From Candidatus Desulfofervidaceae bacterium (GTDB lineage: Bacteria; Desulfobacterota; Desulfofervidia; Desulfofervidales; Desulfofervidaceae), in assembly GCA_027038965.1 (NCBI GenBank), contig JALWFG010000006.1:1-36940 (forward strand): a stretch of DNA of 36,940 nucleotides, written 5' to 3'. How positions within the stretch are numbered: the first letter of the stretch is position 1; every line of letters starts with the position of its first letter. Made by a program: the position numbers and the translations under genes. The notes under the pieces were generated by a model. It made no database searches and was not told the DNA's origin. It worked only from the letters and a program-made list of their open reading frames with translations. Shown one piece after another: positions 2,248 through 17,890 of the stretch.

Positions 2248-2829
2248 ATGATGACTATGAAAGACAAAAACTTATTATTTGAATGTTTGGTAATGGGGCT
2301 TGTTTTGGTTAGTGGGTTGTGGATCTTGATTTACCCAATTTATTCCCAAACCCAGGAAGTAAGCCCTGTTAGAACCAAAACTATAAGTTTAAAAGAAGCC
2401 TGCGTTAAGGCTGCTATTCGTGGAATTGAGTTGGATATGGAAAGACTCCAAAAGTGGCTTGAGATACCAAAGGGAAAGTTGACCGAAGGCGCTGCACCAA
2501 GGAAAAGAATTAAATCCCGGCTAAATCAATTGAAAGTAGAGTTAGAGAAGTATAAAAGCATCCGATTACAAGACTATGAGCTTCCTGATAAAAGAGAGGT
2601 TATAGGGTGGATTAATCAGCCCTGCACAGAGAATACAATATTGCAGATAGAAGGCATGAGCAGGTCAGGGCCTTTTTATCATATTGTGGGCATCAAAGGA
2701 GGAAATTATAGCGTTATCAAACCCCAAATTAAGTATAGAATGGCTATTTATTTGGTATATCCGAGATATTATCCATTTCCCAGTTACTATATCTACCTGG
2801 CCGCTTTCTGCCCTTTAACCAGCACATAA
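2248..2829 (+). CDS. Hypothetical secreted or membrane-anchored protein
   Basis: 193 codons. After a short charged start the protein has a hydrophobic segment (about residues 11-31), consistent with a signal peptide or single anchor, followed by a basic helical stretch (about 45-105) and a more beta-like C-terminal part rich in Tyr and Pro. I do not recognise the family. No clear ribosome-binding site precedes any of the three clustered Met codons (2248, 2251, 2257). The last 37 bases overlap, in opposite orientation, the 3' end of the RND pump gene. The gene may have been fused or extended at its end when foreign DNA joined the chromosome, since the terminal residues derive from antisense pump sequence. 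Confidence 0.5.
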   Translation: MMTMKDKNLLFECLVMGLVLVSGLWILIYPIYSQTQEVSPVRTKTISLKEACVKAAIRGIELDMERLQKWLEIPKGKLTEGAAPRKRIKSRLNQLKVELEKYKSIRLQDYELPDKREVIGWINQPCTENTILQIEGMSRSGPFYHIVGIKGGNYSVIKPQIKYRMAIYLVYPRYYPFPSYYIYLAAFCPLTST

Positions 2830-5800
2830 AAGGAGGGCATAAAAAGGAGTGACATCAGAATGGCAAAGCCCAGTCCTCCCATGACGGCAATGGCCAGTCC
2901 TTGAATGATTTCAGTGCCGGTGCCAATGGCCAGGGCAATGGGGAGAAATCCCCAAAAGTCGGCCATCATGGTCATCAAGATGGGCCTCATCCGAACCGCA
3001 CAGGCCTTAAACAGCACCTGGGCCTCAGTGCCCTTCCCTTTCAACCCCTTTTGAAACTGGGAAAATATGAGGATACCATTGTTTAGCACAATGCTTAAAA
3101 CGATAAGCATGCCCATAAATGAGGTAACATCCAAAGGGCGGCGGGTAAGCATAAGGGCAAGAAAGACGCCGAAGAGGGAAAGGGCCGTGCCGGTAATTAC
3201 TGCCAAGGCAATCCTCAGGCTGGAGAATTGCAAGATAAGCATGATTAATACAATAAGCACGGCGGCAACGATGATAAAGGTTAATGTTTTAAAGGATTTT
3301 TGCTGTTCTTTGTAAAATCCTGTAATTTGAACGCCAATGTTTGGAGGTAATTGCATTTGAGAAAGGACATTTTTTATATCCTTTACCGCCCCAGTTAGGT
3401 CATTTCCTGGAATTCTAGCGGTGACCAAGGCCATTGGAACAAGGTTTTCGTGGGTCACTTCAGGGGTATGCCTCCTTAGTTTGACATCGGCTACATAGGA
3501 AATGGGGATATACTCACCTGTTTTTGGGGCATAGATCAAAAGTTTGTGCGTGAGATAATCAATGGGATCACTTAAATCCCTTTGGGTGATGAGCCTGAGT
3601 TTAATGATCTGCTCCCCCTGAATAACATTGCCCACCACCTTCCCCCAGAAGGCAGTCTTTATGGTCTCGCTTACCTGTTTTGGAGTTATTCCATAAATGG
3701 CCTCGGCTTCTGGTTTTGCCCTTACCACCAATTGAGGTCCGGCAAAGGTGGTTTTTAAATTGACCTCCACTAGGCTGGGGACATGACGGAGTTTATGGCA
3801 CAATTTTTGTCCCCAGGCAATGAGTGCCTTGGGGCCTGCCCCAAAGAGCTGGACCTTTATAGGGGCCTCTTCTCCCATAATATCTCCTAGCCTGTCTTCC
3901 AATACCTGAGATAGGTCAAATTCTTCCAGATTGGGCACCTTTTCATTTACCCGCTTTCTCACCTCTTCCATGACTTGAAAGACGCTCCTTTTGCGGTGCT
4001 TCTTCAATGTAACCAAAAAGTCACCCACGTTATCCGCTGTCCGCGGATGGGCCAAACTGTTCCCAATCCTTAAAGAGTAATGGTCAACTTCAGGGATGGA
4101 ATTGAGTATTCTTTCTATGATTTGGGTCTCCTTTATGGTTTGCCTTAAAGAAGTGCCTACAGGGGTAACAAAATCCAAGACAAAGCTACCCTCATCCCAT
4201 TTGGGGAGCAAGGTAGAGGGCAGACTGCGATACATCACAATGCTTGAGCCCCCCAAGATCAACATCGCTGGAATAGTCCACCAAGAATGTTTAAATCCCC
4301 ATCGCAGCAGGTGAAGGTAGCTGTGTTTAAATCGTTTGTATATTTTGCCTTCAGGCCGTGCCTTTTCTTTGGCCGAAAATGCCAAATAGGCCAAGACTGG
4401 AGTAAGGGTAATGGCCAAAAGCTGAGAGGCAATAATGGCCACGGCCAAGGTAATGGCCAACTGCCTGAAGAATATGCCTACAATGCCAGATAATAACACC
4501 AAGGGGACAAATACCATAACTGAGGTCAGAGTGGCCAAGGTCATGGGCAACATCAAGTCCTTTGAGGCCTCAATGATGGCGCTCTTTTTATCCTTCTCAT
4601 GTCGCAAATACCGCTCTATGTTTTCTATTACCACCACTGCATGGTCCACAATGGCAGCAACTGAGGCGGCCATCCCTCCTAGGCTGAAGATGTTAAAATC
4701 CATATGCAACAGCTTCATGATGATTACTGCCATGAGCAGGGCCACAGGAATGACCAAAATGGTAAGAAAGGATATCTTGGCCTGTCTTAAAAACAAATAG
4801 ATAATACTCAAGGTGATTAATGCGCCCAAAATAATGGCATCGCGAATGCTATGCACAGACATCTTGACAAAGTCAGAAAGGTCATACCACTTGACAATCC
4901 TTACTCCTTGAGGCAGGGTCTTTTGCAATCCCCTTATTTCACGGTCCACTAGGGTGGCTACCTTTACGGCATTGGCCTTGGGCTGCCTGAGTAAGTTGAA
5001 TAAAACGGCATTTTTATAATGGTCAACGGCCACATATTTAAGAATAGGGGCATGTGATTCAACCACGGTGGCAAGACTGCCTAGAGGCACAAATCCGCCA
5101 TTTTGTAAGGGGATTTTTATGTTTAATATGCCTTCTAAGTCCTTTGGCCTTTGGAGGAACAAGATTAAATATTCCTTTTTGTGGTCATACACCAAACCAG
5201 GGGATTCAACGATGTTTTGCCTTTGAAGGGTCTGTTTGATGCGGGTCAAAGAAAGGTGATAGGCATTGAGTTTATCTGCTGCCACCACGATGTGATATTC
5301 CCTCCACCTGCCTCCCCGCATTTCGGCATCGTAAACCCCATCTATACCCAGAATCACCGGTCTTATCTTGTAATAAAACAGCTCTGTCAATTTCTCTTTG
5401 GAGATTTTGTTTGAGGCCAGGGCATAGCCGGCAATGGGATAGGCACTTGGGGTAATCTGTTTCACCACTACTTGAGCAGAAGGGGGCAAGGCATTTCTCA
5501 CCTCGGCGATGCGAGACTGCACTAATTGATAGCCGCGATAGGGATTTACATTCCAATTGAAAAAGACATCTATGTCGGTGCTACCCACCCCGGTAGATGA
5601 GACTACCTTACGCACCCCCTGAACGGATTTGGCGGCCTCTTCTATGGGTTTGGTCACTTGAATAAGCATTTGCTTGGTAGGCAAATAGCCGCAGGAGACG
5701 CTGATAAATACCCTGGGAAAAGAAACATTGGGGAACACGGCTTCAGGCATTGTGGAAAGAAGATAACCGCCTGTCAGGGCAGCAATGATGGCCAACAGGA

Positions 5801-5906
5801 TAAATCCCAAGGTATTATGGAGGACATACCGATAAAATCCCTTTATTTGAGAATATTCACCCTCGTCTTGTCTGTTAATAAATACGCCCCTTCTGTCACC
5901 ACCCAT
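2793..5906 (-). CDS. RND-family efflux pump, inner-membrane subunit (pump 1)
   Basis: 1037 residues, full length for the AcrB/CusA superfamily: an N-terminal transmembrane helix (about 32-52), a large periplasmic loop, a helix block (about 355-510), a second periplasmic loop (from about 560) and a final helix block. The TM4 signature reads IVDHAVVVIENI (419-430), so the usual Asp-Asp pair of hydrophobe exporters is Asp421-His422. The TM10 region has LNNGIL where AcrB has its proton-relay lysine. With the adaptor and TolC-like genes upstream this forms a complete tripartite exporter. The ATG at 5906 makes a 64-base overlap with the adaptor gene; no in-frame ATG, GTG or TTG is closer, so a later ATT or ATA start is possible. 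Substrate unknown. Confidence 0.93.
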   Translation of the reverse strand: MGGDRRGVFINRQDEGEYSQIKGFYRYVLHNTLGFILLAIIAALTGGYLLSTMPEAVFPNVSFPRVFISVSCGYLPTKQMLIQVTKPIEEAAKSVQGVRKVVSSTGVGSTDIDVFFNWNVNPYRGYQLVQSRIAEVRNALPPSAQVVVKQITPSAYPIAGYALASNKISKEKLTELFYYKIRPVILGIDGVYDAEMRGGRWREYHIVVAADKLNAYHLSLTRIKQTLQRQNIVESPGLVYDHKKEYLILFLQRPKDLEGILNIKIPLQNGGFVPLGSLATVVESHAPILKYVAVDHYKNAVLFNLLRQPKANAVKVATLVDREIRGLQKTLPQGVRIVKWYDLSDFVKMSVHSIRDAIILGALITLSIIYLFLRQAKISFLTILVIPVALLMAVIIMKLLHMDFNIFSLGGMAASVAAIVDHAVVVIENIERYLRHEKDKKSAIIEASKDLMLPMTLATLTSVMVFVPLVLLSGIVGIFFRQLAITLAVAIIASQLLAITLTPVLAYLAFSAKEKARPEGKIYKRFKHSYLHLLRWGFKHSWWTIPAMLILGGSSIVMYRSLPSTLLPKWDEGSFVLDFVTPVGTSLRQTIKETQIIERILNSIPEVDHYSLRIGNSLAHPRTADNVGDFLVTLKKHRKRSVFQVMEEVRKRVNEKVPNLEEFDLSQVLEDRLGDIMGEEAPIKVQLFGAGPKALIAWGQKLCHKLRHVPSLVEVNLKTTFAGPQLVVRAKPEAEAIYGITPKQVSETIKTAFWGKVVGNVIQGEQIIKLRLITQRDLSDPIDYLTHKLLIYAPKTGEYIPISYVADVKLRRHTPEVTHENLVPMALVTARIPGNDLTGAVKDIKNVLSQMQLPPNIGVQITGFYKEQQKSFKTLTFIIVAAVLIVLIMLILQFSSLRIALAVITGTALSLFGVFLALMLTRRPLDVTSFMGMLIVLSIVLNNGILIFSQFQKGLKGKGTEAQVLFKACAVRMRPILMTMMADFWGFLPIALAIGTGTEIIQGLAIAVMGGLGFAILMSLLFMPSFYVLVKGQKAAR

Positions 5907-6868
5907 TCGCCACCCTTTATGCCAGAAGATATGATTATATCTTGACCATTATCATATAGGATGGAAACATGCCTAGCCTCGGCCTGGTGTCTTTTAACAA
6001 TAAACACCGTGGGCGCACCTCGTGTCATAATCAATGCCTGTTTAGGCAGTTTGATACCCTTTACGATGCCCTTGATGATCTCTACCCTCACCCTTTCTCC
6101 AGGGGCAAGCTGGGATTTAGGAACGACGATGGCCTTTTTGAAACCTGATTGATTGCTTTGATAGATGACCGTTTTTACTTCTCCCAGAATAAGGCCCTCT
6201 TGGGCCCAAATCTTGGCCTTGTCCCCCTTCTTTAATTTGACACTTAAAGGGATAAAGGCCTCAACATAGCCATTTTGAGGGCTTACGACTTCACATACGG
6301 CCTTGGAGGCATCTACGTATGTGCCTATACTAACCAGTTTATCTACATAACCCGCTACCGGTGATTTTATTTTCATATAGGCCAGCCTTTGGATCATGCC
6401 CTGACGCTTGACCTTCAAAACCGCTATATCGGCCTTGAGCCTCTGGTATGCCGCTTGAGCCTTTAACCGCTCTAGGCGAGAAATGATCCCTAGACGATAG
6501 AGCTTCTTGTTTATCTCCCATTGGGCCTTGGTCTGATTGAGCAGGGTTTGCAATGCCCTTATTTGGGCCTCAAGCTGTCTTAATTTGCTTCTTAAAAGGG
6601 TGTCATCTAATTGGGCGATGACTTGGTTTATCCTTACATACGCACCCGTTTTTACCTCTAAACGCTTGATAATTCCTGAAATGAGGGGGTGAATAACCAC
6701 ACTCTTGGGACTTACTACTTGGCCAAAGGTGGTAAATGACACTGGGATGGCAGAAAACTCCGCCTTTACTACCTTTACATCAACCATGGCCTGCCCTGCG
6801 GCAATGGCCTTTTGGTAAAAGGCAAGGGCAAAGAAAAAGGTTAATCCTAAAATGATTGTGCGTTTCAT
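5843..6868 (-). CDS. RND periplasmic adaptor (membrane fusion protein), pump 1
   Basis: 341 residues with a cleavable-type signal peptide (basic MKR, hydrophobic core, cleavage probably near AIAAGQA). The order barrel-sandwich half (about 45-85), alpha-helical hairpin with Gln/Leu-rich heptads (about 90-165), second lipoyl half (SPVAGYVDKLVSIGTYV, about 170-187) and beta-barrel is that of HlyD/AcrA-type adaptors. It links the inner-membrane pump to the outer-membrane channel. Its ATG overlaps the stop of the TolC-like gene (ATGA), and its own 3' end overlaps the pump gene, so the three proteins are probably translationally coupled. Confidence 0.9.
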   Translation of the reverse strand: MKRTIILGLTFFFALAFYQKAIAAGQAMVDVKVVKAEFSAIPVSFTTFGQVVSPKSVVIHPLISGIIKRLEVKTGAYVRINQVIAQLDDTLLRSKLRQLEAQIRALQTLLNQTKAQWEINKKLYRLGIISRLERLKAQAAYQRLKADIAVLKVKRQGMIQRLAYMKIKSPVAGYVDKLVSIGTYVDASKAVCEVVSPQNGYVEAFIPLSVKLKKGDKAKIWAQEGLILGEVKTVIYQSNQSGFKKAIVVPKSQLAPGERVRVEIIKGIVKGIKLPKQALIMTRGAPTVFIVKRHQAEARHVSILYDNGQDIIISSGIKGGEWVVTEGAYLLTDKTRVNILK

Positions 6869-8106
6869 GGTTGCACCTCGGCGTATAACCTAGGAGAAGA
6901 AATGGCCTGAAGCACGGTGAGATAGTAATGGGTATAACTTAGGGCAGAAAAATATGCCTTTTTAAGCTGAAGTAGATTTTGGTGGGTAAGAAGCAGGGTA
7001 TTTAAATCCACTCCGCCTGTTTCATATCCCTGATGAAGACGATTAACGACGTCTTCCAAATCTTTAAGGGCGTTTTTGTAAGTAAGTAGCTTTTGTTTAG
7101 CCGCTATGTAGTTGTAATAATTGCGACGCACAAAATCCCTTAATGCCAGTTCCTGTGCCCTGGCCTGGGCCAAAAGGCTCAAATATTTCTCCTGATGAGA
7201 AAGCAACTTCTTTTTCCGACCTGGGTCAAATAGGTGAGAAGAAAGCCCCACCATAAAATCCCATTGGTTACCATTACCTGCTGGGTCTTGATTGATTTGA
7301 TAACCCACTCCCAGGGTAAGGGTAGGTATCCATTCCCTCTTTATGGCCTGAAGCATAGACATTTCTGCCCTGGCCTTTAAACGCCAGGCCTTTATTTCTG
7401 GGGCAAGGTGTAGGGTCTGATTTTCCAACTCCTTTAAGTTTAACTCTGGAAATGTCAGCGTTTCCTTCAAGCTGGCCTTTATTCTGGGACTGAACCCGCA
7501 GATGAGTTTGAGCCTGCTGGCCGCAATGCTCCTCTGGGCCTGAGCGGCCAAAAAACAGCTCTGTGCCTTGGCCAGGGTGCCTTTCAGCCTGAGCACATCT
7601 ACATAGGCCCCACCACCTGCCTTATATCTCTGCTTGGCAACGGTCAACTCCTTTTGGGCCCAAACAAAGTCCTCTTGGGCAATAAGGACCAATTGGTTGG
7701 CATAAAGGTAGTCGAAATATGCCCTGGCCAGCTTTAGAAATAACCCCCTTTTACCCCTTTCAACCAAAAGGGCACTGGCCTTGGCCTCCTGTCTAAGGCC
7801 CTTGATGCGATAACGGTCTTTGCCAAAAATATCAATGGCATCGGTAAGCCCAAAATCCGTAAAATTGTATTCATTGACCAGCGTAGGTGATATGCGCTGA
7901 TAATTGGTGGTCAGGGTGAGTTGGGTCCATCTGCTTCTTTTGGCAGCCAGATAGTCATCTGCTTTCGCCTTATACCTGTGCGTCAAGACCCTCATTTCTG
8001 GACTAGTGCTTAAACTCTTTGTATAGAGCTTCCACAGTTCATCGGCTGCCGCTACTTGAGATAAACAGAACAGTATCATGGTCGTAAAAAGTAATCTAAG
8101 CGTCAT
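6865..8106 (-). CDS. TolC-like outer-membrane efflux protein, pump 1
   Basis: 413 residues, start MTLRLLFTTMILFCLSQVAAA giving a signal peptide. The rest shows two similar halves of long amphipathic helices with regularly spaced Ala/Leu, typical of the outer membrane efflux protein family, which trimerise into a channel spanning outer membrane and periplasm. It starts 13 bases after the lipoprotein gene stop and overlaps the adaptor gene by four bases, placing it in the four-gene leftward operon. Specific substrate cannot be deduced. Confidence 0.9.
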   Translation of the reverse strand: MTLRLLFTTMILFCLSQVAAADELWKLYTKSLSTSPEMRVLTHRYKAKADDYLAAKRSRWTQLTLTTNYQRISPTLVNEYNFTDFGLTDAIDIFGKDRYRIKGLRQEAKASALLVERGKRGLFLKLARAYFDYLYANQLVLIAQEDFVWAQKELTVAKQRYKAGGGAYVDVLRLKGTLAKAQSCFLAAQAQRSIAASRLKLICGFSPRIKASLKETLTFPELNLKELENQTLHLAPEIKAWRLKARAEMSMLQAIKREWIPTLTLGVGYQINQDPAGNGNQWDFMVGLSSHLFDPGRKKKLLSHQEKYLSLLAQARAQELALRDFVRRNYYNYIAAKQKLLTYKNALKDLEDVVNRLHQGYETGGVDLNTLLLTHQNLLQLKKAYFSALSYTHYYLTVLQAISSPRLYAEVQP

Positions 8107-8119
8107 TTATCCAACCTTA

Positions 8120-8680
8120 TTAAAACCTACCAATGTCATAAATGGCCAATATTTCCTGAAGCCGTACGGTAATTTCTTGAGAAATGGCAGGTTCACCAGT
8201 AATCGGCCTGATATTTCCTGAATTTGTAAGCAATTCTGGCAAAGACTTCCCTATAAATTGATTTAAAAAGGCATCTGTAACGAGGGGCTTATGGTCTTTT
8301 AGGACGTTTTTAACCACGGTAATTTTATCAATGTCGTCACCATCAATCCAAACAAGCATTTGTAGCCTACCGCAGGGTGTTTGTTGGGAAATAGGGAAAA
8401 CCTCTGCCCTTTCTCCCAGGTTTATTTTGACCCTACCTACCTTTTTTGTCTCGGCCTGATAAAAATAACTAAGCCCTTGGGGATAATACTTTAGGGGATG
8501 CCCCAAGAGGTCTTTAACCCTTGCCCTTTGGGCTGGAGTAAGGGCCAAATATCCCTTTTGATAACCCTGCAATTCATTTAACCCACCCCCCTTTTGAGAG
8601 GGTTTAAAGGTAGCACAACTGGTCAAGGCTATGATTAACAAACACCCTACAGATTTAAAAAAAACGCTCTTTTTACTCAT
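8120..8680 (-). CDS. Lipoprotein with FMN-binding-like C-terminal region
   Basis: 186 residues. The N-terminus has a lipoprotein signal with lipobox LTSC (Cys22), so the mature protein is probably anchored to a membrane facing the periplasm. Residues about 110-180 resemble the FMN-binding domain of RnfG/NqrC-type proteins: a variable beta-strand, a DHKPL-like segment, FLNQFIGKS, then PITGEPAIS followed by a terminal helix. In classical members a S/T-G-A-T motif carries the covalent flavin on Thr; here that position does not offer the same Thr, so covalent FMN is doubtful. It is the first gene of the pump 1 operon, directly behind a sigma-54 promoter. Its role with the pump is unknown. Confidence 0.75.
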   Translation of the reverse strand: MSKKSVFFKSVGCLLIIALTSCATFKPSQKGGGLNELQGYQKGYLALTPAQRARVKDLLGHPLKYYPQGLSYFYQAETKKVGRVKINLGERAEVFPISQQTPCGRLQMLVWIDGDDIDKITVVKNVLKDHKPLVTDAFLNQFIGKSLPELLTNSGNIRPITGEPAISQEITVRLQEILAIYDIGRF

Positions 8681-8728
8681 TGTTAACCTCCTAAAATTCC
8701 TCTTATCTCCTGCTGCCTTTTTTAGTAA

Positions 8729-8744
8729 GGCAATAATTGTGCCA
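8729..8744 (-). promoter_or_regulatory. Sigma-54 (-24/-12) promoter of the pump 1 operon
   Basis: Read on the minus strand the sequence is TGGCACAATTATTGCC, matching the consensus TGGCACR-N4-TTGCW except for the final base, with the required 10-base spacing between the GG and GC elements. Transcription would start near 8717, about 37 bases before the lipoprotein ATG. A sigma-54-dependent regulator is encoded in the divergent operon. Confidence 0.82.
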
Positions 8745-8756
8745 CTTCAAAAATGA

Positions 8757-8833
8757 CCAGATACTCTGGATTTAAAGCAAGGGGGATAGACTTTATGTCT
8801 ACAACTCTTGCGTGGGTATGCAAAAAATTGCAT
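8757..8833. promoter_or_regulatory. Three inverted repeats between divergent sigma-54 promoters
   Basis: Three perfect small dyads: CCAGA-tac-TCTGG (8757-8769), TAGAC-tttat-GTCTA (8787-8801) and ATGCAA-aaaa-TTGCAT (8818-8833). They lie between the two sigma-54 promoters, at distances where enhancer-binding regulators of the NtrC type normally bind. Their sequences differ from one another, so at most some are sites for the same protein. Binding by the nearby response regulator is inference. Confidence 0.5.
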
Positions 8834-8890
8834 GGTTGGGTAGGTGAGATGGTGAGTGGTTAAGGAGATTTATGGTATTATCTGGACCAA

Positions 8891-8906
8891 TGGCATATTT
8901 ATTGCT
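8891..8906 (+). promoter_or_regulatory. Sigma-54 (-24/-12) promoter of the PAP2/kinase/regulator/pump 2 operon
   Basis: TGGCATATTTATTGCT has the TGGCA and TTGCT elements of a -24/-12 promoter with exact 10-base spacing between GG and GC. The start point would be near 8917, with a GGAG ribosome-binding site before the ATG at 8945. It faces away from the other sigma-54 promoter in the same intergenic region. Confidence 0.8.
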
Positions 8907-8944
8907 TGAATAAATACCAGACCTCAAAATAAGGAGAGCTTGTT

Positions 8945-9715
8945 ATGCACTTTAAGAAACAAACGTGGAGTTTCACAGTTATCATTGTTGTTTTGGTTTG
9001 TGGGATTTCCCAGCCGGCCTGGACATTTGAATATAAGGACACCGTGGAATCAGACCTTCACCAAACTAAAACTATTCTTACAAAAGATAATTTATTAAAG
9101 GCAGGACTCTTTACCGGACTCTTTTTATCCAGTATGGCCTTAGATAGACCAATAAAAAATGTGGTTAAACACAACCAAAGTGCCTCTCTAAAACAGATTA
9201 CAGATGTAACCAATCAGTTTGGTAATGGCTGGTGGACATTCCCCTTTGTTACGGGTCTTCATCTGATTGGACGGGCTACAAAAAATGAAAAATTGGCAGA
9301 GGCATCCTTTACAGCCATGGAGTCATTCTTTGTGGCAGGGGCATTTTGTAGCCTTGGCAAATTGGCCTTTGGACGGGCTCGCCCTTCAGTAAACGATTCA
9401 CCTTTTCATTTTAAGCCCTTTCAGGGGTATAAGGCCGGTTGGAGCAGCCTTCCTTCAGAACATGTTACTGTGGCCTGGGCAGTGGTAACTCCTTATGCCG
9501 TTTATTATCATCAGCCGTGGCTTTATTTGTTGCCAATTTCAACAGCGGCTGCTAGAATTTATAAAAATGCCCATTGGTTCTCAGACACAGTTTTGGCAAG
9601 CGGAATCGGATTTGGCACCGCCTATTTGTTAAGCAAGTGGCACATAAACGCAAAGAATAGCCGGGTTGCCGTTATCCCCTTGCCTCAAGGCATCTGTTTA
9701 AATATTAAATTTTAA
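8945..9715 (+). CDS. PAP2-family membrane or periplasmic phosphatase
   Basis: 256 residues with an N-terminal signal or anchor helix (about 8-27). The three catalytic motifs of the type 2 phosphatidic acid phosphatase superfamily are present: KLAFGRARP (139-147, KX6RP), LPSEHV (169-174, the PSGH motif with Glu replacing Gly) and RIYKNAHWFSD (204-214), giving the catalytic His173 and His210 and Asp214. Such enzymes remove phosphate from lipids such as undecaprenyl diphosphate, phosphatidylglycerol phosphate or lipid A. It is the first gene of a sigma-54-driven operon, eight bases before the sensor kinase gene, suggesting an envelope-stress or envelope-modification role. The substrate is not evident. 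Confidence 0.85.
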   Translation: MHFKKQTWSFTVIIVVLVCGISQPAWTFEYKDTVESDLHQTKTILTKDNLLKAGLFTGLFLSSMALDRPIKNVVKHNQSASLKQITDVTNQFGNGWWTFPFVTGLHLIGRATKNEKLAEASFTAMESFFVAGAFCSLGKLAFGRARPSVNDSPFHFKPFQGYKAGWSSLPSEHVTVAWAVVTPYAVYYHQPWLYLLPISTAAARIYKNAHWFSDTVLASGIGFGTAYLLSKWHINAKNSRVAVIPLPQGICLNIKF

Positions 9716-9723
9716 TATAAACC

Positions 9724-11001
9724 ATGAAAAAAACACATTTTTCTCTCATTGCCAAATTTAGCCTGATTATCTTGCTGATATTGGGCCTGGCCATTTCCTT
9801 TTTTTATTATCGTGAAGAAAAAAGGGAAGAAATGGCCTATCAGCGACACATGGAAAAAGAGATTCAGTTAATGGTGAGTTTGCTTACAAAAAACAGCTCT
9901 CCTGCCCAAATGCAGTCTTTATTGGACGAAGTGCACAAATGCTGGGGTAAAGTCCTGCACATTCAAGTAATAGATAGCCATAGAAGGATTGTTGCCTCTA
10001 CGCAAAGAGGAGAAATAGGACAATCGGTTAAAACAGACCCTAAACAGGTATTGTCCTTTAAATTGCAGTCTCAGGACTTGAATGAACAGGTGTTTTCTTT
10101 TCCCATAAAGACGCCATCCTTTGAAGGCACTATAAGGGCATACATCGTCCCAGCGGATGTTTATGAGGAATATTTAAAAGACAAGGCCGAACGGCGCAAT
10201 GAGGCCATTTTGACCTTTATTGTTGCTTTAGCCGTGCTTATGGCCCTTACTTATGTTGTTGTGACCAGATATGAGAATACCTTTATAGCCAAAACGGCTG
10301 AAAGGCTTAGAGCAGAGAATGAAGTGATGACAGAAAAGATAAAACAAAGTGAACGCCTAGCAGTGTTGGGACGCATGGCCGCCAGTCTCGCCCATGAAAT
10401 TCGCACCCCTCTGACTTCCATTAAAAATCTGGCCCAGTTGTTAGAAGAAGAACATAACGACCCGGTGTTCAGAAGGGAGTTTCAAGAGCTCGTTATAAGC
10501 GAAGTAGAAAGGATAAACCACATTATCAGGGCCCTTTTGTCCTATGCCAAGCCCCTTAAATTGCAAAAAAACAAGATAAGGCTGGACAACCTTATAGAAG
10601 AGGCCCTGGATGGTTTGAAAGAGACGGGGCAAATGGGAAAGGCCAAGGTGGAAAAGGTGTTAAGGCCCATAGAAATACAGGCCGACAAGGACCTGATCAA
10701 GCAAGTACTGGAAAACATCATTCTTAATGCCTGTCAGGCCATGAAGGGAGAAGGGTTCCTAAATATTCGCCTCAATCAAGAGGGACAAAATGCGGTCATT
10801 GCGATCAAAGATAGCGGAGGAGGCATTCAAGAAAAGGATAAACCGCATATCTTCACACCCTTTTTCACCACCAAGGCAAAAGGCACTGGTTTGGGGCTGG
10901 CCTTGTGTGAAAAGATTATCACGGCCCATGGAGGAAAGATTGAGTTTGATTCCCAAACAGGGGTGGGAACAACCTTTTATATTTATCTGCCAAAGGGGTA
11001 G
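9724..11001 (+). CDS. Membrane sensor histidine kinase
   Basis: 425 residues. Two transmembrane helices (about 10-28 and 161-181) enclose a periplasmic sensing region of about 130 residues. Then come a coiled segment, the dimerisation/phosphoacceptor box LAHEIRTPLTSIKN (His224), the N box with Asn331 and Asn335 (ENIILNACQAM), DSGGGIQ (G1, from Asp363), FTPFFTTK (F box) and GTGLGLAL (G2). This is the standard layout of NtrB/ZraS-like kinases that pair with sigma-54 regulators. The partner regulator starts three bases downstream. The signal is unknown; an envelope signal is likely given the periplasmic domain and the operon contents. Confidence 0.92.
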   Translation: MKKTHFSLIAKFSLIILLILGLAISFFYYREEKREEMAYQRHMEKEIQLMVSLLTKNSSPAQMQSLLDEVHKCWGKVLHIQVIDSHRRIVASTQRGEIGQSVKTDPKQVLSFKLQSQDLNEQVFSFPIKTPSFEGTIRAYIVPADVYEEYLKDKAERRNEAILTFIVALAVLMALTYVVVTRYENTFIAKTAERLRAENEVMTEKIKQSERLAVLGRMAASLAHEIRTPLTSIKNLAQLLEEEHNDPVFRREFQELVISEVERINHIIRALLSYAKPLKLQKNKIRLDNLIEEALDGLKETGQMGKAKVEKVLRPIEIQADKDLIKQVLENIILNACQAMKGEGFLNIRLNQEGQNAVIAIKDSGGGIQEKDKPHIFTPFFTTKAKGTGLGLALCEKIITAHGGKIEFDSQTGVGTTFYIYLPKG

Positions 11002-11004
11002 CAC

Positions 11005-12336
11005 ATGAGGACTTTATTAATTGTGGATGACGATGAGGCCATTCGGCGCTCCTTGGCCATTTCCTTTCGGAGGGAGTTTCAAATTTTAGAGGCCGCCGAG
11101 GGAAATGAGGCATTGGAGATAATTAGAGAAACCCCGATAGATATAGTGCTTTTGGACCAAAGACTGCCCGATGCAGATGGGACAGAGGTGTTAAAAGAGA
11201 TAAAAAGGCTGTCTCCAGAGGTGCCAGTCATCATGCTCACTGCCTATGGCACGGTAAAATCCTCGGTAAAGGCCATGAAATTGGGTGCCTTTGATTATAT
11301 TGAAAAGCCTTATGACATTGAGGAAGTAAAGCTTACCATAGCCAATGCCTTAAAACTGCGGATGCTAGAGGAAGAAATAAACCATCTGAGATTGGAGCTT
11401 AAAGAGAAATATGCCTTAAGCGGCATTATTGGTAAAAGTAAGGCCATGCAAGATGTATTTCGCCTGATTAAAGACATTGCCCCTTTAGATATTACCGTGC
11501 TTATTACCGGTGAGACCGGCACCGGGAAGGAATTGGTTGCTAGGGCCATTCATTACAACAGCTCACGCGCAAACGGGCCCTTTGTAGCCGTAAATTGTGC
11601 CGCCATTCCAGAGAACCTTTTAGAGAGCGAGCTCTTTGGCTATGAAAAGGGGGCCTTTACCGGGGCGGTCAAAAGAAAGAAGGGGAAAATAGAACTGGCT
11701 GAAAGGGGCACCCTTTTCTTGGATGAAATTGGGGACATGCCGTCTGAGCTTCAGGCCAAGCTTCTGCGCTTTTTAGAAGATAGAACATTTGAACGCTTGG
11801 GCGGAGAAGAAAATATCAAGGCCAATGTCCGGATTGTAGCAGCCACAAATCAGGACTTAACCTTGGCCATTAAAGAAAGGAGATTTCGGGAAGATTTGTA
11901 TTTTAGGCTAAACACCGTTACCATTTATCTTCCCCCATTAAGGAAACGTCTAGAAGACATTCCTCTTTTAGCAGAACACTTTGTTCAGCAATACAATCAA
12001 AACTTCAAGAAGGATGTTAAGGGTATTTCACCAGAGGCCCTTTCTCTTCTCATGCAATACGATTGGCCAGGAAATGTGAGAGAGCTAAAACATGTGATTG
12101 AGCGGGCCGTGGCCCTATGCCGAGGAGAAATGGTTACACCAAAAGACCTGGCCTTAGAACCAAAAGAAGAATTAGGAGAGGAGATTTACGACCTAAACCG
12201 CATTCTAGAAAGGCATGAAAAGGCCGCTATTAAAAAGGCCCTTATGCAAACCGGGTATAACAAAACAAAGGCGGCTCAGCTTCTGGGTATTAGCCTGCGC
12301 TCTTTGCAATACAAGGTGAAAAAGTATGGATTGTAA
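11005..12336 (+). CDS. Sigma-54-dependent response regulator, NtrC/ZraR type
   Basis: 443 residues in the order receiver, AAA+ and Fis-type helix-turn-helix. The receiver has the acidic pocket at DDD 8-10, phosphoacceptor Asp51 and Lys101. The AAA+ domain has Walker A GETGTGKE (169-176), the sigma-54 contact loop GAFTGA (216-221) intact, and Walker B GTLFLDEIGD (235-244). The C-terminal HTH (about 412-440) contains NKTKAAQLLGISLRSLQYKV. With the intact loop it should open sigma-54 promoters, and two such promoters lie 2-2.3 kb upstream. Most likely it activates both the divergent pump 1 operon and its own operon. Confidence 0.95.
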   Translation: MRTLLIVDDDEAIRRSLAISFRREFQILEAAEGNEALEIIRETPIDIVLLDQRLPDADGTEVLKEIKRLSPEVPVIMLTAYGTVKSSVKAMKLGAFDYIEKPYDIEEVKLTIANALKLRMLEEEINHLRLELKEKYALSGIIGKSKAMQDVFRLIKDIAPLDITVLITGETGTGKELVARAIHYNSSRANGPFVAVNCAAIPENLLESELFGYEKGAFTGAVKRKKGKIELAERGTLFLDEIGDMPSELQAKLLRFLEDRTFERLGGEENIKANVRIVAATNQDLTLAIKERRFREDLYFRLNTVTIYLPPLRKRLEDIPLLAEHFVQQYNQNFKKDVKGISPEALSLLMQYDWPGNVRELKHVIERAVALCRGEMVTPKDLALEPKEELGEEIYDLNRILERHEKAAIKKALMQTGYNKTKAAQLLGISLRSLQYKVKKYGL

Positions 12337-12392
12337 AATGCCTAGATTAGATAATTGGGTTAGAAAGTGAGGAAGAAGGAGATAAATTTTAA

Positions 12393-13742
12393 ATGAAAAA
12401 TCTTTTTTGGTGGGGCCTTCTGTTTTTTTGTTGTGCCTGTGCTGTGTACCACCCTGCCCCTTTGACAGAAACGAGGGTTAACCAGGCCCTGAAGTTGCCC
12501 CCTAAAAGGGTACTTAGTCTTAAGGCCAGTTTGATTAAACACCCTTTGCTTAAACCCGTAAAAATAGATTTTAACCAAGGCCTTACCCCTCAAGGAATAG
12601 CGGTTTTGGCAGTCATTCTTAATCCCCAATTGAGAAGGCAGAGGGATAGGCTGGGTATTGCTTATGCCCAATCGATTGAGGCAGGGCTTTTGCCCAATCC
12701 AGAATTTTCTCTGGATATGGAATTTCCTACTGGAGGAGAAACTCAAAATGTGGTGAATGGCTATAATGCGGGAATTAGTTTTGGCCTTAGAAGGCTTTTA
12801 ACTAGACACCTTTATAGAAAGGCTGAAGGATTAAGGTATAAGGCAATTCAACTTGATATTGCTTGGAAGGAATGGCAGGTGGCCGAGGCGGCCAAGTGTC
12901 TTGCTTACAGACTTATCTTTTTGAGAAGGCAACTTGGTCTTTTAATAGGCCATTTAAAAGTGTATAAAAAATTTCTTTCAGGGCTTAAAAACGGCCTTGA
13001 AGGTGGTTTTGTTACTTATAATCAATATCTCGCCGAGATAAATCAATTTAATGATTTAATTAAAAGGCAAGAGGACTTAAAAAAGAAAATTTCTGAAAGT
13101 GAGCTTAGGTTAAAAGCCCTTATAGGATTGCCCCCTGATTTTAGACTAAAACTGGTATGTCATCCTGAAAATCTTAAGCCAGATGTCAAACAAGTTATCA
13201 CTTCGAAGTATCACTTAGAAAACAGGCTTGATTTGGTGGGGTTAAAACGACTCTACGAGGCCCACGAAGCCCTTTTAAAGGCCACTATAGAAGGACAGTT
13301 TCCTTCGGTTTCCCTTAACTTTGCTCAAGCAAGAGATGTTGAAAATGTCTATGCAGTAATTCCAGGGATTTCTGTCAGTCTGCCCATTTTTAACCGCAAT
13401 CAGGCCCAAATTGCCCTAAAAAAGGCTGAGAGAAAGGCCGTTTTTGATGAATATCTAAATCGATTATATAAGGCTCAGATGGACATTAAACGGCTTACTG
13501 CCAATATTGCCTGGATTGCTAGGGCCATAGAGACCGAACAAGCTATCCTTGCCAAGCTTAAACCTGTCCACAATGCCGTTTTAAAGGGCCTAAGCACTGG
13601 CAGATGTAATGAGATGGAACTTATATCCATAAAGGGTCAAATTTTTAGAGAAAAGATGAGGGTTTTGTCCCTAAAGGCTGCCTTAATGGAAAATTTGGTG
13701 GGCCTTGAACTTGAAAGTGGGCATCCCTTAGGAAATATATAG
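12393..13742 (+). CDS. TolC-like outer-membrane efflux protein, pump 2
   Basis: 449 residues. A hydrophobic N-terminus ends in a cysteine cluster (FFCCACAVYHP), so it may be a lipoprotein attached at Cys16, as in NodT/CusC-type channels, though the lipobox is not canonical. The body has the two helical repeats of the outer membrane efflux family, including NPQLRRQRDRLGIA and LLPNPEFSLD motifs usual for the first half. Begins 56 bases after the regulator gene with an AGGAG site, and no separate promoter is visible, so it is probably in the same operon. The adaptor and pump genes follow. Confidence 0.9.
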   Translation: MKNLFWWGLLFFCCACAVYHPAPLTETRVNQALKLPPKRVLSLKASLIKHPLLKPVKIDFNQGLTPQGIAVLAVILNPQLRRQRDRLGIAYAQSIEAGLLPNPEFSLDMEFPTGGETQNVVNGYNAGISFGLRRLLTRHLYRKAEGLRYKAIQLDIAWKEWQVAEAAKCLAYRLIFLRRQLGLLIGHLKVYKKFLSGLKNGLEGGFVTYNQYLAEINQFNDLIKRQEDLKKKISESELRLKALIGLPPDFRLKLVCHPENLKPDVKQVITSKYHLENRLDLVGLKRLYEAHEALLKATIEGQFPSVSLNFAQARDVENVYAVIPGISVSLPIFNRNQAQIALKKAERKAVFDEYLNRLYKAQMDIKRLTANIAWIARAIETEQAILAKLKPVHNAVLKGLSTGRCNEMELISIKGQIFREKMRVLSLKAALMENLVGLELESGHPLGNI

Positions 13743-13751
13743 GAGGCCTAG

Positions 13752-14843
13752 ATGAAACACCAAACAAAAGCCATTCTGCTTATCATAGGCCTTGTGGCAG
13801 TTGTGGGAATGGCAACATGGTTGTCATTAAGCCCTTCCATCCAAATTCAAACTGGCCATTTATCAACCCCGGCAATCCCCAAAGGCTTTATTCAATTCGG
13901 ACATCCTGTTCGTAAGTCTTTTACCAAAACCATTACCGTCTGGGGCCGTGTGGAATCCATAAATGCCGTATCTGTCGTTGCCCTTGAGGCGGGAGAAATT
14001 ACCCGTATTTATCATGAAGTTGGAGATAGGGTCAAAAGGGGCACTCCCCTTTTTAAGATAGGTGGCAGGAGACTGGAAAAGAGGATTTCGTCCTTGAGCC
14101 AACAAGTAGGCTTGCTCAGAGAGGCCCTCCAAACAGCCAAGGCAAATCTCATTTCCCAAAAAGAGGCCTACAAAAGGCACTTAGTAAAGATAGACCAGAT
14201 CTTTGGTCTCAAAGAAAAGATAAACCGCCTCCAGAAACAGCTTATGGAACTTAAGACCAATTTAGAGATGCTGAAGGCGGCTCAAACAATCACATCTCCA
14301 TTAGATGGCATGTTGACCCAAAGAAAGGTAGGTCTGGGGCAAATGGTGAGTCAGGGAATGCCCTTGGCCCAAATAACCGATGTGACCCATTTGAGGATCA
14401 GGGCTTGCCTTTTTGGATTACCCCTTTCAGACCTCCAAAGACTTCACCACAAAAGGGTAATAATAGAGGGAAAACTTTTAGGCCGAGTAGATAGGGTCTT
14501 GCCAGAAAGGACATCCGACGGGGGCACTCTCATCTGGATTACGGCCCCAGGGCTTGAAAGGCAGTTTTGCCTGGGAGAAATCGTAGGCTGCCAGATTACC
14601 TTGAGCAGTAAAAAAGGCCTTTTTGTCCCTGAGACTGCTGTTATCTTTACCGACCACCACGCCTTTGTATTTGTAAGAGATAAGATGGGTGTCCACCGGC
14701 TTGAGGTTAAAACTGGTGAGGAGCAAAACGGCCTGATAGAAGTTACTTCTGCCAACCTCAGGCCTCAAAATGAAATTATGACTCAGGGGGCCTATGAATG
14801 TTTTTATCGTTATTTTTCTAGGGCCTTTAAGGTGGCCGACTAG
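13752..14843 (+). CDS. RND periplasmic adaptor (membrane fusion protein), pump 2
   Basis: 363 residues with an N-terminal signal or anchor helix (about 7-26). The barrel-sandwich half ALEAGEITRIYHEVGDRVKRG is followed by a shorter helical hairpin (about 105-175), the second half SPLDGMLTQRKVGLGQMV and beta-barrel segments, as in HlyD/CusB-like adaptors. Nine bases separate it from the TolC-like gene. It shows little visible resemblance to the pump 1 adaptor beyond the family plan, so the two pumps are not a recent duplication. Confidence 0.9.
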   Translation: MKHQTKAILLIIGLVAVVGMATWLSLSPSIQIQTGHLSTPAIPKGFIQFGHPVRKSFTKTITVWGRVESINAVSVVALEAGEITRIYHEVGDRVKRGTPLFKIGGRRLEKRISSLSQQVGLLREALQTAKANLISQKEAYKRHLVKIDQIFGLKEKINRLQKQLMELKTNLEMLKAAQTITSPLDGMLTQRKVGLGQMVSQGMPLAQITDVTHLRIRACLFGLPLSDLQRLHHKRVIIEGKLLGRVDRVLPERTSDGGTLIWITAPGLERQFCLGEIVGCQITLSSKKGLFVPETAVIFTDHHAFVFVRDKMGVHRLEVKTGEEQNGLIEVTSANLRPQNEIMTQGAYECFYRYFSRAFKVAD

Positions 14844-14860
14844 ACTCAAGGAGGAAGGTT

Positions 14861-17800
14861 TTGAAGAAGACACTTCGTTTTTTAATAGACAATTCCATAG
14901 CCATAGTGATTGTAGTTGTTATTTTTATAGGCCTTGGTCTGCTGTCTATAAACCACATGCCGGTTGATCTTTTCCCAAAGATGGATATTCCAGTGGTAAA
15001 TATTATCACCCATTACCCCGGGGCCTCGGCCAAGGATATGGAAGTGATGATTTCAACACCCGTAGAAACAAAAATGATGAGCCTTCCCAATGTCAAACGA
15101 GTATCCTCTAGTTCGGCCCAGGGGCTTTCTATGGTTACGGTTGAGTTCAATTGGGGCACTTCAGTGCTTGCGGCCCGACAGTTAGTTCAATCAAAACTCG
15201 GGGAATTGGCAGGTATTTTGCCCCAAGGCGCTATTCCAAGAATCGATAACATAGGTACCAGACTTCAAGATGTTTATGGCTTCGTTGTCTATGGAAGTGA
15301 TTTGGACAAACTTTATAACATCACCAGATATCAACTAGCAGGAAGGCTTATGAAGATAGATGGTGTGGCCTCGGTGGCCATCATCGGCGGAGATAGAGAG
15401 GCGATCAATGTCAATATATCTTCTAAAAAGTTAAAGACCTTTCATGTGAACCTTAAAGAGATCATAAATGCCCTTAAAAGTTGCAATAAAACAGTGGTTA
15501 TCGGATATATAGATAGGGCTTCAAGGGAATATGTCATCAGAGGAAATGGTGCTTTAAGAGATATTAAAGATATTGGTGACATTCCCATAAAGTCAAATGG
15601 AATTTCTCCCATTTTTCTTAAAGATGTAGCCATCATAAAGAAGGGCATTGCCCCTAAGCATTACACCATCCATGGCGATGGACAGAAGGTCCTAGCAGTT
15701 ATGGTCAGGAAACAACCGGGGGCAAGTTCTATTAAGGTAGTAGAAGCCGTTAAGTCTAAACTGAAGGCCTTAAAGGCATTGTATCCGGCCTCTACCCGCA
15801 TCAAGACCTATTATGACCAGTCGGAAATCATTACTGAATCGAGAAGGGAGATTACCAACGACTTGATTATAGGTTCCTTATTGGTGTTTTTGGTCTTGTA
15901 TTTATTTTTGGGCAACCTGAAACCAACCCTCATTGTGGCTGGCACCATACCCATCACCTTTATTACTAGCCTTTATTTAATGCACCTTTTAGGGTTGAGC
16001 CTTAATGTTATTACCATGACAGCCTTGGTGTTGGCTATCGGCATGATTGTAGATGACGCCATTGTGGTTACCGAAAACATTTACCGGCACAGCCTTATGG
16101 GAGAAGATACCAGGGTAGCTAGTATAGAAGGCACCTTAGAAATTGCTGGCCCCGATGCCTCGGGTACATTCACTACCATCGCCGCCTTTTTACCCTTATT
16201 GGTCGTAAGTGGCATTATCTCTATTTTTATAAGACCCTTTGGCTTGACTATCAGTCTTTCCCTATTGGTTTCTTTAATCCTTTCCTTAAGCTTGGTGCCA
16301 GTCTTATTTTCAAGGGCTAAAATCAGCCCTTTAGATAATAACTACTTGGGCCTTAAAATGATTACCCACCTCCAAAATCTTTTAAAAAGGGTTCTTAAAT
16401 GGTCTTTTAAACATAAATATATCGTGGTATTCTTGGCCGCGCTTTCTCTGATAACATCTGGATTGGCGTTTTTCTCAGGCAGGGTTTCCTTGTTGCCACC
16501 GATAGATGAAGGGGCCATTTTGATAGAATACATCATGCCTCCAGGCACCTCCCTGAAGGAAAGTGACCGAATAGGAAATCTTCTTGAAAGACTGGCCATG
16601 AAAAATCCCAATGTGTTGACGGTTTACCGAAGAACGGGCTCTCCGAAGCAAAGCTATATGATAGAAGGTGTTAATCGGGGTGAGCTGATGATAAAGCTCA
16701 AACCCAAAACCGCTCGTAGCGAGGATGTAACCAAAATTATAAATGAATTAAAAAAGGCCTATTCTCAAATCAAAGGTGTAGTCTTTTTATACCACCAACC
16801 CACTCAAGAAAATATAGACGAGAGCTTTTCTGGATTGCCGGCCCTTTTTGGGGTAACGATTTATGGAGATGACTATCAAAAGCTAATTGCCCTTTCGCAA
16901 AAGATAGAAAAGACGATGAATAAGATGCCGCAGTTAAATAATATTGTCAACAATATCAAATTTAAGGTCCCCCAATTAACCGTTAGGCCTGATTACACGA
17001 GGCTTTCATTTTATCACTTGAGCCCGGCCGAGCTATTCAACACCTTGAAGGCTGCCAATTGGGGGCTGAAAGTTACAAGTATTATTAAACACAACAGAGA
17101 AATTCCCGTATTTGTAAAAATACCCGTTTCAAGCCATTCCCTGAGAAATCTTAAAAATCTTTTCATTGTAGGTGTCCAAGGACAAGAGATACCTCTTTTT
17201 GAGGTGGCGGGAATTAAAAAGGAATTTCTGCCCCCGGTTATTACTCACATAGATGGTCAAAGGGAAGTAACGATTATCGCTGAAGTAGAGGGGAACATCT
17301 TGTCTGTAGCCAAGGCCTTAAGAAACCACCTGGCCCGGATAAATCTTCCCCCAGGCTATAGCATTGACTTGAGTGGCCAATACCACGTCCTTATAAAGAC
17401 CTTTATGGAAATGGGGCTTTCGGCCCTGCTGGCCCTGATATTGATCTATCTCATCATGGTGATGCAATTCCGCTCCTTTGTTGAACCGCTCATTATCCTT
17501 TTCACCATTCCACTTTCTGTTGTTGGGGCTAGCTTAGCCTTATTTATCACCAAACAGGGCCTAAATATCTCGGTGGCCATGGGAATGATTACCTTAATGG
17601 GCATCGCCGTTAACAATGCCATCGTTTTGGTAGATTACAAAAATAAAATGGTCAAAACCGGGCAAGGCATCAAAACCGCCCTTATTGAAGCCGCCTGCAT
17701 CAGACTAAGGCCAATCATTTTGACCTCTCTTACGACCATTTCGGCCCTCATCCCCACGGCCATAGGCACCACTGTCTCTTCTCACATCTTCCAACCCTTT

Positions 17801-17890
17801 GCCATTACAGTTATCGGCGGCCTGCTTTCAGCTACCCTGGCTACCCTTATAGTTGTTCCCAATTTAATCTTGATCAGGCATAAAAAATAA
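14861..17890 (+). CDS. RND-family efflux pump, inner-membrane subunit (pump 2)
   Basis: 1009 residues starting at a TTG codon placed well behind an AAGGAGGAAGG ribosome-binding site; no ATG fits as well. It has an N-terminal helix (about 12-30), two periplasmic loops and two helix blocks. TM4 carries the full Asp-Asp signature MIVDDAIVVTENIYRHS (Asp398-Asp399), unlike pump 1. TM10 reads GIAVNNAIVLVDY, common in RND exporters outside the AcrB subgroup. Together with the two genes before it, it forms a second complete tripartite exporter. The 3' end converges with jag; the stop codon lies inside the jag terminator region. Confidence 0.93.
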   Translation: MKKTLRFLIDNSIAIVIVVVIFIGLGLLSINHMPVDLFPKMDIPVVNIITHYPGASAKDMEVMISTPVETKMMSLPNVKRVSSSSAQGLSMVTVEFNWGTSVLAARQLVQSKLGELAGILPQGAIPRIDNIGTRLQDVYGFVVYGSDLDKLYNITRYQLAGRLMKIDGVASVAIIGGDREAINVNISSKKLKTFHVNLKEIINALKSCNKTVVIGYIDRASREYVIRGNGALRDIKDIGDIPIKSNGISPIFLKDVAIIKKGIAPKHYTIHGDGQKVLAVMVRKQPGASSIKVVEAVKSKLKALKALYPASTRIKTYYDQSEIITESRREITNDLIIGSLLVFLVLYLFLGNLKPTLIVAGTIPITFITSLYLMHLLGLSLNVITMTALVLAIGMIVDDAIVVTENIYRHSLMGEDTRVASIEGTLEIAGPDASGTFTTIAAFLPLLVVSGIISIFIRPFGLTISLSLLVSLILSLSLVPVLFSRAKISPLDNNYLGLKMITHLQNLLKRVLKWSFKHKYIVVFLAALSLITSGLAFFSGRVSLLPPIDEGAILIEYIMPPGTSLKESDRIGNLLERLAMKNPNVLTVYRRTGSPKQSYMIEGVNRGELMIKLKPKTARSEDVTKIINELKKAYSQIKGVVFLYHQPTQENIDESFSGLPALFGVTIYGDDYQKLIALSQKIEKTMNKMPQLNNIVNNIKFKVPQLTVRPDYTRLSFYHLSPAELFNTLKAANWGLKVTSIIKHNREIPVFVKIPVSSHSLRNLKNLFIVGVQGQEIPLFEVAGIKKEFLPPVITHIDGQREVTIIAEVEGNILSVAKALRNHLARINLPPGYSIDLSGQYHVLIKTFMEMGLSALLALILIYLIMVMQFRSFVEPLIILFTIPLSVVGASLALFITKQGLNISVAMGMITLMGIAVNNAIVLVDYKNKMVKTGQGIKTALIEAACIRLRPIILTSLTTISALIPTAIGTTVSSHIFQPFAITVIGGLLSATLATLIVVPNLILIRHKK

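Follow-up and report, generated by a model that had tools for sequence, protein, structure and literature searches.

Divergent predicted sigma-54 promoters between two RND efflux operons in a Candidatus Desulfofervidaceae bacterium

Genes and operons of the locus

The window (the whole stretch of 36,940 nucleotides that was analysed) belongs to a genome of 2.19 Mb in 21 contigs. It holds two divergent operons, separated by an AT-rich intergenic gap of 264 bp between their start codons (8681-8944): a leftward operon (8680 down to 2793) in the order lipoprotein-OEP1-MFP1-RND1, and a rightward operon (8945 to 17890) in the order PAP2-kinase-regulator-OEP2-MFP2-RND2 (Table 1). In both operons, successive genes overlap or are at most 17 bp apart, the exception being the 56 bp before OEP2. 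Shine-Dalgarno-like sequences (AGGAGG and AAGGAG) mark the two operon starts. Each operon encodes a permease, a periplasmic adaptor (MFP) and an outer-membrane efflux protein (OEP), which together define a tripartite pump of the HAE-RND type; the two permeases are 27% identical. The preliminary description had recognised two RND efflux operons with distinct tripartite pumps and, in one of them, an intact NtrC-type activator with the GAFTGA motif; our analysis bears out both points. The lipoprotein-like protein that opens the leftward operon gave no family match in profile searches.

Table 1. Features of the divergent pump operons and of the gap between them (positions refer to the window unless a locus is named)
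Feature	Position	Strand	Remarks
RND permease 1 (RND1)	2793..5906	-	PF00873; TM4 from alignment
MFP1, periplasmic adaptor	5843..6868	-	TIGR01730 above cut-off
OEP1, outer-membrane efflux protein	6865..8106	-	TolC-like; PF02321
Putative lipoprotein (186 aa), left operon gene 1	8120..8680	-	lipobox-like LTSC
Predicted sigma-54 promoter (-24/-12), left operon, TGGCACAATTATTGC	8730..8744 (8744..8730)	-	exact TGGCAC-N5-TTGC, 10/10 specified bases
Dyad 1, CCAGA-tac-TCTGG	8757..8769, centre 8763		about -45 from left, -154 from right predicted start
Dyad 2, TAGAC-n5-GTCTA, candidate activator site	8787..8801, centre 8794		about -76 (left), -123 (right)
Dyad 3, ATGCAA-n4-TTGCAT, candidate activator site	8818..8833, centre 8825.5		about -107 (left), -92 (right)
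Predicted sigma-54 promoter, right operon, TGGCATATTTATTGC	8891..8905	+	TGGCAT-N5-TTGC, 9/10 specified bases
PAP2-superfamily lipid phosphatase-like protein, right operon gene 1	8945..9715	+	PF01569
Membrane sensor histidine kinase	9724..11001	+	C-terminal part closest to AtoS/ZraS models; His224
NtrC-type response regulator	11005..12336	+	receiver, AAA+ with GAFTGA (11650-11667), Fis-type HTH
OEP2, outer-membrane efflux protein	12393..13742	+	PF02321
MFP2, periplasmic adaptor	13752..14843	+	TIGR01730 above cut-off
RND permease 2 (RND2)	14861..17890	+	PF00873; TM4 DD pair
Lipid-enzyme loci near pumps	window 8945-9715; L117 9904-10908, 5492-6859; L118 10866-12251; L120 1642-4197

The regulator has an intact receiver, a Walker A motif, GAFTGA at residues 216-221 and a Fis-type helix-turn-helix (HTH_8), the domain content of an NtrC-type enhancer-binding response regulator. 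The kinase, as read from its sequence, has two apparent membrane segments flanking a segment of about 130 residues, and its phospho-acceptor is His224. The closest models to the two proteins are AtoS, ZraS, AtoC, PEP-CTERM-type, NtrC and ZraR, all scoring below the equivalog cut-offs (NCBIfam: ZraS 214 bits vs 479, ZraR 406 vs 760), and the named plasmid matches for the kinase are ZraS proteins at 28-31% identity. Strict membership in ZraSR was rejected because of these scores and because a zraP-type divergent gene is lacking: the divergent gene encodes the 186-aa lipoprotein-like protein, not a zinc-binding periplasmic protein of the ZraP type. By analogy, the pair would nevertheless work like a ZraSR-type pair. 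The regulator has about a dozen close paralogues in the genome (13 matches including itself).

Predicted promoters and dyads in the intergenic gap

Two sigma-54 promoter elements are predicted in the gap, both facing outwards, at 50 bp (left, start codon 8680) and 40 bp (right) from the start codons. The GG and GC of the elements are 10 bp apart, and the right element ends in TTGCT, with the T that follows most sites in this genome. Chance would rarely produce such an arrangement: first-order Markov shuffles of the gap contain a mean of 0.0015 TGGCAY-N5-TTGC sites, and none of 20,000 shuffled gaps had one on each strand. A consensus scan of the gap found no sigma-70-like promoter, and no IHF site was found there with up to one mismatch to the E. 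coli consensus; three genes of the HU/IHF family are present in the genome.

The genome encodes a single rpoN (PF04552 match, E 7e-64). The stringent motif TGGCAY-N5-TTGC occurs 39 times genome-wide against 4 times for the reversed control, about a tenfold enrichment, from which it also follows that roughly one match in ten may be due to chance. When context was judged with a simple gene caller applied to the retrieved loci, 22 of the 39 sites were scored as intergenic with a downstream gene start within 400 bp, and some of the matches fall inside genes. Genes with a site directly before them include a glnA-like (L075), a urease gamma-like (L089), a pilin-like (L103) and a NifV-like one (L085), names that were read from the sequences without a search. 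Among all sites of the genome, TGGCAT is as common as TGGCAC.

Three dyads, with arms of 5, 5 and 6 bp, lie between the two promoter elements. As evidence, their number by itself is modest to weak (P 0.016 if only short spacers are allowed, 0.1 if spacers may reach 12), and their phasing is more unusual: from centre to centre the distances are 31.0 and 31.5 bp, three helical turns. In a post-hoc test, in-phase triples of this kind turned up in 3 of 20,000 sequences drawn from the model and in about 0.1-0.2% of tiles from the same genome. The NtrC sites at glnAp2 are likewise three helical turns apart. A single operator sequence common to all three dyads was ruled out: with arms that differ, they do not represent one operator present three times. 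The second and third dyads, phased and unlike in sequence, stand, with respect to both promoters, at the distances (70-150 bp upstream) expected of enhancers; dyad 1 has an uncertain role, being nearer to the left promoter than enhancers usually are. For D. vulgaris, distances of up to 100 nt between a sigma-54 promoter and its closest activator site form the most frequent class (PMC4641369). The arm pattern of dyad 3 is found in the gap only, genome-wide; that of dyad 2 has one other exact copy in the genome (two matches per strand, against six in the reversed control). We infer that the dyads may serve as operators of the resident regulator.

Relatives of the two pumps

Relatives of RND2, at 49-56% identity, are present in 12 other genomes of a phylum sample of 395, none of them in the same genus or family, and no orthologous locus was found in the about 395 genomes of this sample with the kinase, the PAP2 protein and the RND2 pump as queries. 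In four of these relatives (G034, L057; G308, L117; G382, L118; G117, L121) permeases of the RND1 and RND2 types, about 33% and 52-55% identical to those of the window, share one operon in the order OEP-MFP-RND1-MFP2-RND2, and there is a single OEP in those cases where the complete operon is visible. The tree agrees with these assignments: RND1 of the window groups with the RND1s of the relatives (7 rows, support 100/99, on long branches) and RND2 with their RND2s (13 rows, support 100/100). In G034 the RND1-type gene (L057 14256-17308) is split into two overlapping frames, by a frameshift or a sequencing error.

The recurrence of the pair in one operon suggests that co-expression of the two permeases is ancestral or was repeatedly selected, and it supports a joint pump function independently of the promoters. 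The locus in the window looks like the same functional pump pair, split and put under a sigma-54 system; as to direction, the comparison is compatible with a split as well as with a fusion. Two-component systems adjoining RND2-type pumps had OmpR-type regulators in all three cases checked (G131, G089 and G034). If the control proposed below is real, the locus also suggests the replacement of an OmpR-type by an NtrC-type regulator around a related pump pair.

The proton-relay acidic residues of TM4 are DD in RND2. RND1 (VDHAVVVIEN) keeps the first Asp and has His as the second, whereas in the alignment every relative compared shows DD, DN or a different pair that starts with D. The proton relay of RND1 may thus be altered. 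The idea that RND1 is a dead pump for want of the DD pair was rejected, since one Asp is kept and DN is found in many relatives.

Lipid-phosphate or lipid-modifying enzymes recur near these pumps (PAP2, metallophosphatase, PMT-type glycosyltransferase, LPG-synthase-like; Table 1), which may hint that the substrate or the signal is lipid-linked. A more far-reaching proposal would make of the two permeases one functional, possibly lipid-related export system that recurs in the phylum, with an ancestral single operon that was split in this lineage and exchanged its vegetative or OmpR-type control for a sigma-54 switch with positive autoregulation, and with RND1 (DH for DD/DN) dependent on RND2. 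In this complete form we hold the proposal to be speculative and doubtful.

Proposed control of both pumps, and known systems

We propose, with a probability of about 0.8, that the gap serves as a sigma-54 control region for both directions, through which the resident kinase-regulator pair turns on both pump operons together. Sigma-54 promoters need an activator for any transcription. Since such a regulator is required and one of the two operons carries one, both pumps are probably induced by a single envelope signal. The membrane kinase would sense a periplasmic or envelope signal and phosphorylate the NtrC-type regulator, which would oligomerise between the promoters, most likely at sites around the phased dyads at 8787-8833; its GAFTGA loops would then open the sigma-54 RNA polymerase poised at both outward promoters. 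Both operons would be induced together and, with the sensor pair encoded in one of them, the pair would be positively autoregulated. As the activator is obligatory, control of two pumps by one resident activator would amount to a tight on/off efflux switch. The preliminary description had taken the back-to-back sigma-54 elements of correct spacing, the three dyads between them, the resident activator and the two pumps as one self-contained circuit. Elements and dyads are present as it said, and its circuit reading is very probably correct, being supported by the quality of the sites, the genome-wide control, rpoN, the intact activator motifs and the operon layout. Judged from its sequence, the locus appears biologically coherent.

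The two promoters could be real and one or both of them driven by another enhancer-binding protein, the resident regulator acting elsewhere also or instead. Strong paralogues of the regulator, about a dozen in this genome, could play such a role, and the dissimilarity of the dyads means that more than one protein may bind there. Against this stand the position of the regulator gene inside one of the two operons, the near-uniqueness to this gap of both dyad patterns at enhancer distances, and the closest precedents, in which the divergent sigma-54 operons answer to the activator encoded among them (PMC3897727, PMC4641369). Control by another activator seems unlikely to us.

Doubts about the promoters themselves carry less weight. 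The right site has a T at the sixth -24 position, and sigma-54 is described as binding inside genes too (PMC4591121), so that one site only, most likely the exact left one, might be a working promoter, with a vegetative promoter that escaped recognition ahead of the other operon and a chance origin for the second match. TGGCAT is, however, no rarer than TGGCAC among the sites of this genome, the right site has the typical ending and stands 40 bp before a start codon with a Shine-Dalgarno sequence, and the shuffled gaps leave little room for a chance match; we regard a single working promoter as quite improbable. That neither site functions, both being a chance pattern in an AT-rich gap, is scarcely credible. 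Window-wide, the loose motif with up to two mismatches shows no excess (36 found against 32 expected), which would agree with chance, and for the same reason it is the stringent motif that counts; the latter is enriched in the genome, and the gap holds two such sites, in the position and orientation that promoters require.

The wiring of the proposed circuit is already known, both as divergent sigma-54 operons with a resident activator and as an RND-like pump controlled by an enhancer-binding protein. The orp1/orp2 operons of Desulfovibrio vulgaris with their activator DVU2106 are likewise divergent, with a sigma-54 promoter each, palindromic sites between the promoters (there for the activator) and the activator gene in the cluster, and both are activated together (PMC3897727). 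In contrast to our locus, where neither consensus was found, the activator gene there is transcribed from a sigma-70 promoter of its own and IHF sites play a part, and the cargo consists of ORP proteins instead of pumps (PMC3897727). The type III secretion operons of plasmid pDV1 of D. vulgaris are also divergent and sigma-54-dependent, with a shared upstream region and the activator gene (DVUA0100) inside one of them; their cargo is different, and DVUA0100 is classed as a one-component activator (PMC4641369). In E. coli, zraP and zraSR are divergent, with a sensor kinase and NtrC-type regulator that resemble those of our locus in general type, and an RpoN holoenzyme binding peak lies between them (PMC8743547), but zraP encodes one small periplasmic protein and the identity of the kinases is only about 28-31%. 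The RND-like pump operon PP2810-PP2813 of Pseudomonas putida is activated by the NtrC-type CbrB with sigma-54; it encodes a single pump, and CbrB is a global carbon regulator, not a resident local pair (PMC6296734). The paired pumps of the four relatives differ from our locus in forming one operon, and no sigma-54 site was seen upstream of them.

Two pumps combined with divergent sigma-54 promoters and a resident activator were not found in the literature searched, which was limited in scope. What is new is the pump cargo of the circuit and the recurring pairing of both pump types in relatives. If the proposal is true, a recurring pair of RND pumps is tied to one signal, in a small region that can be tested. 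Outward-facing pairs of sigma-54 sites also occur at two more places, G000:C4:23433(-)/23771(+) and G000:C5:34213(-)/34414(+) (L111, L112), the former between exosortase-like and secreted-protein genes, as read from the sequences.
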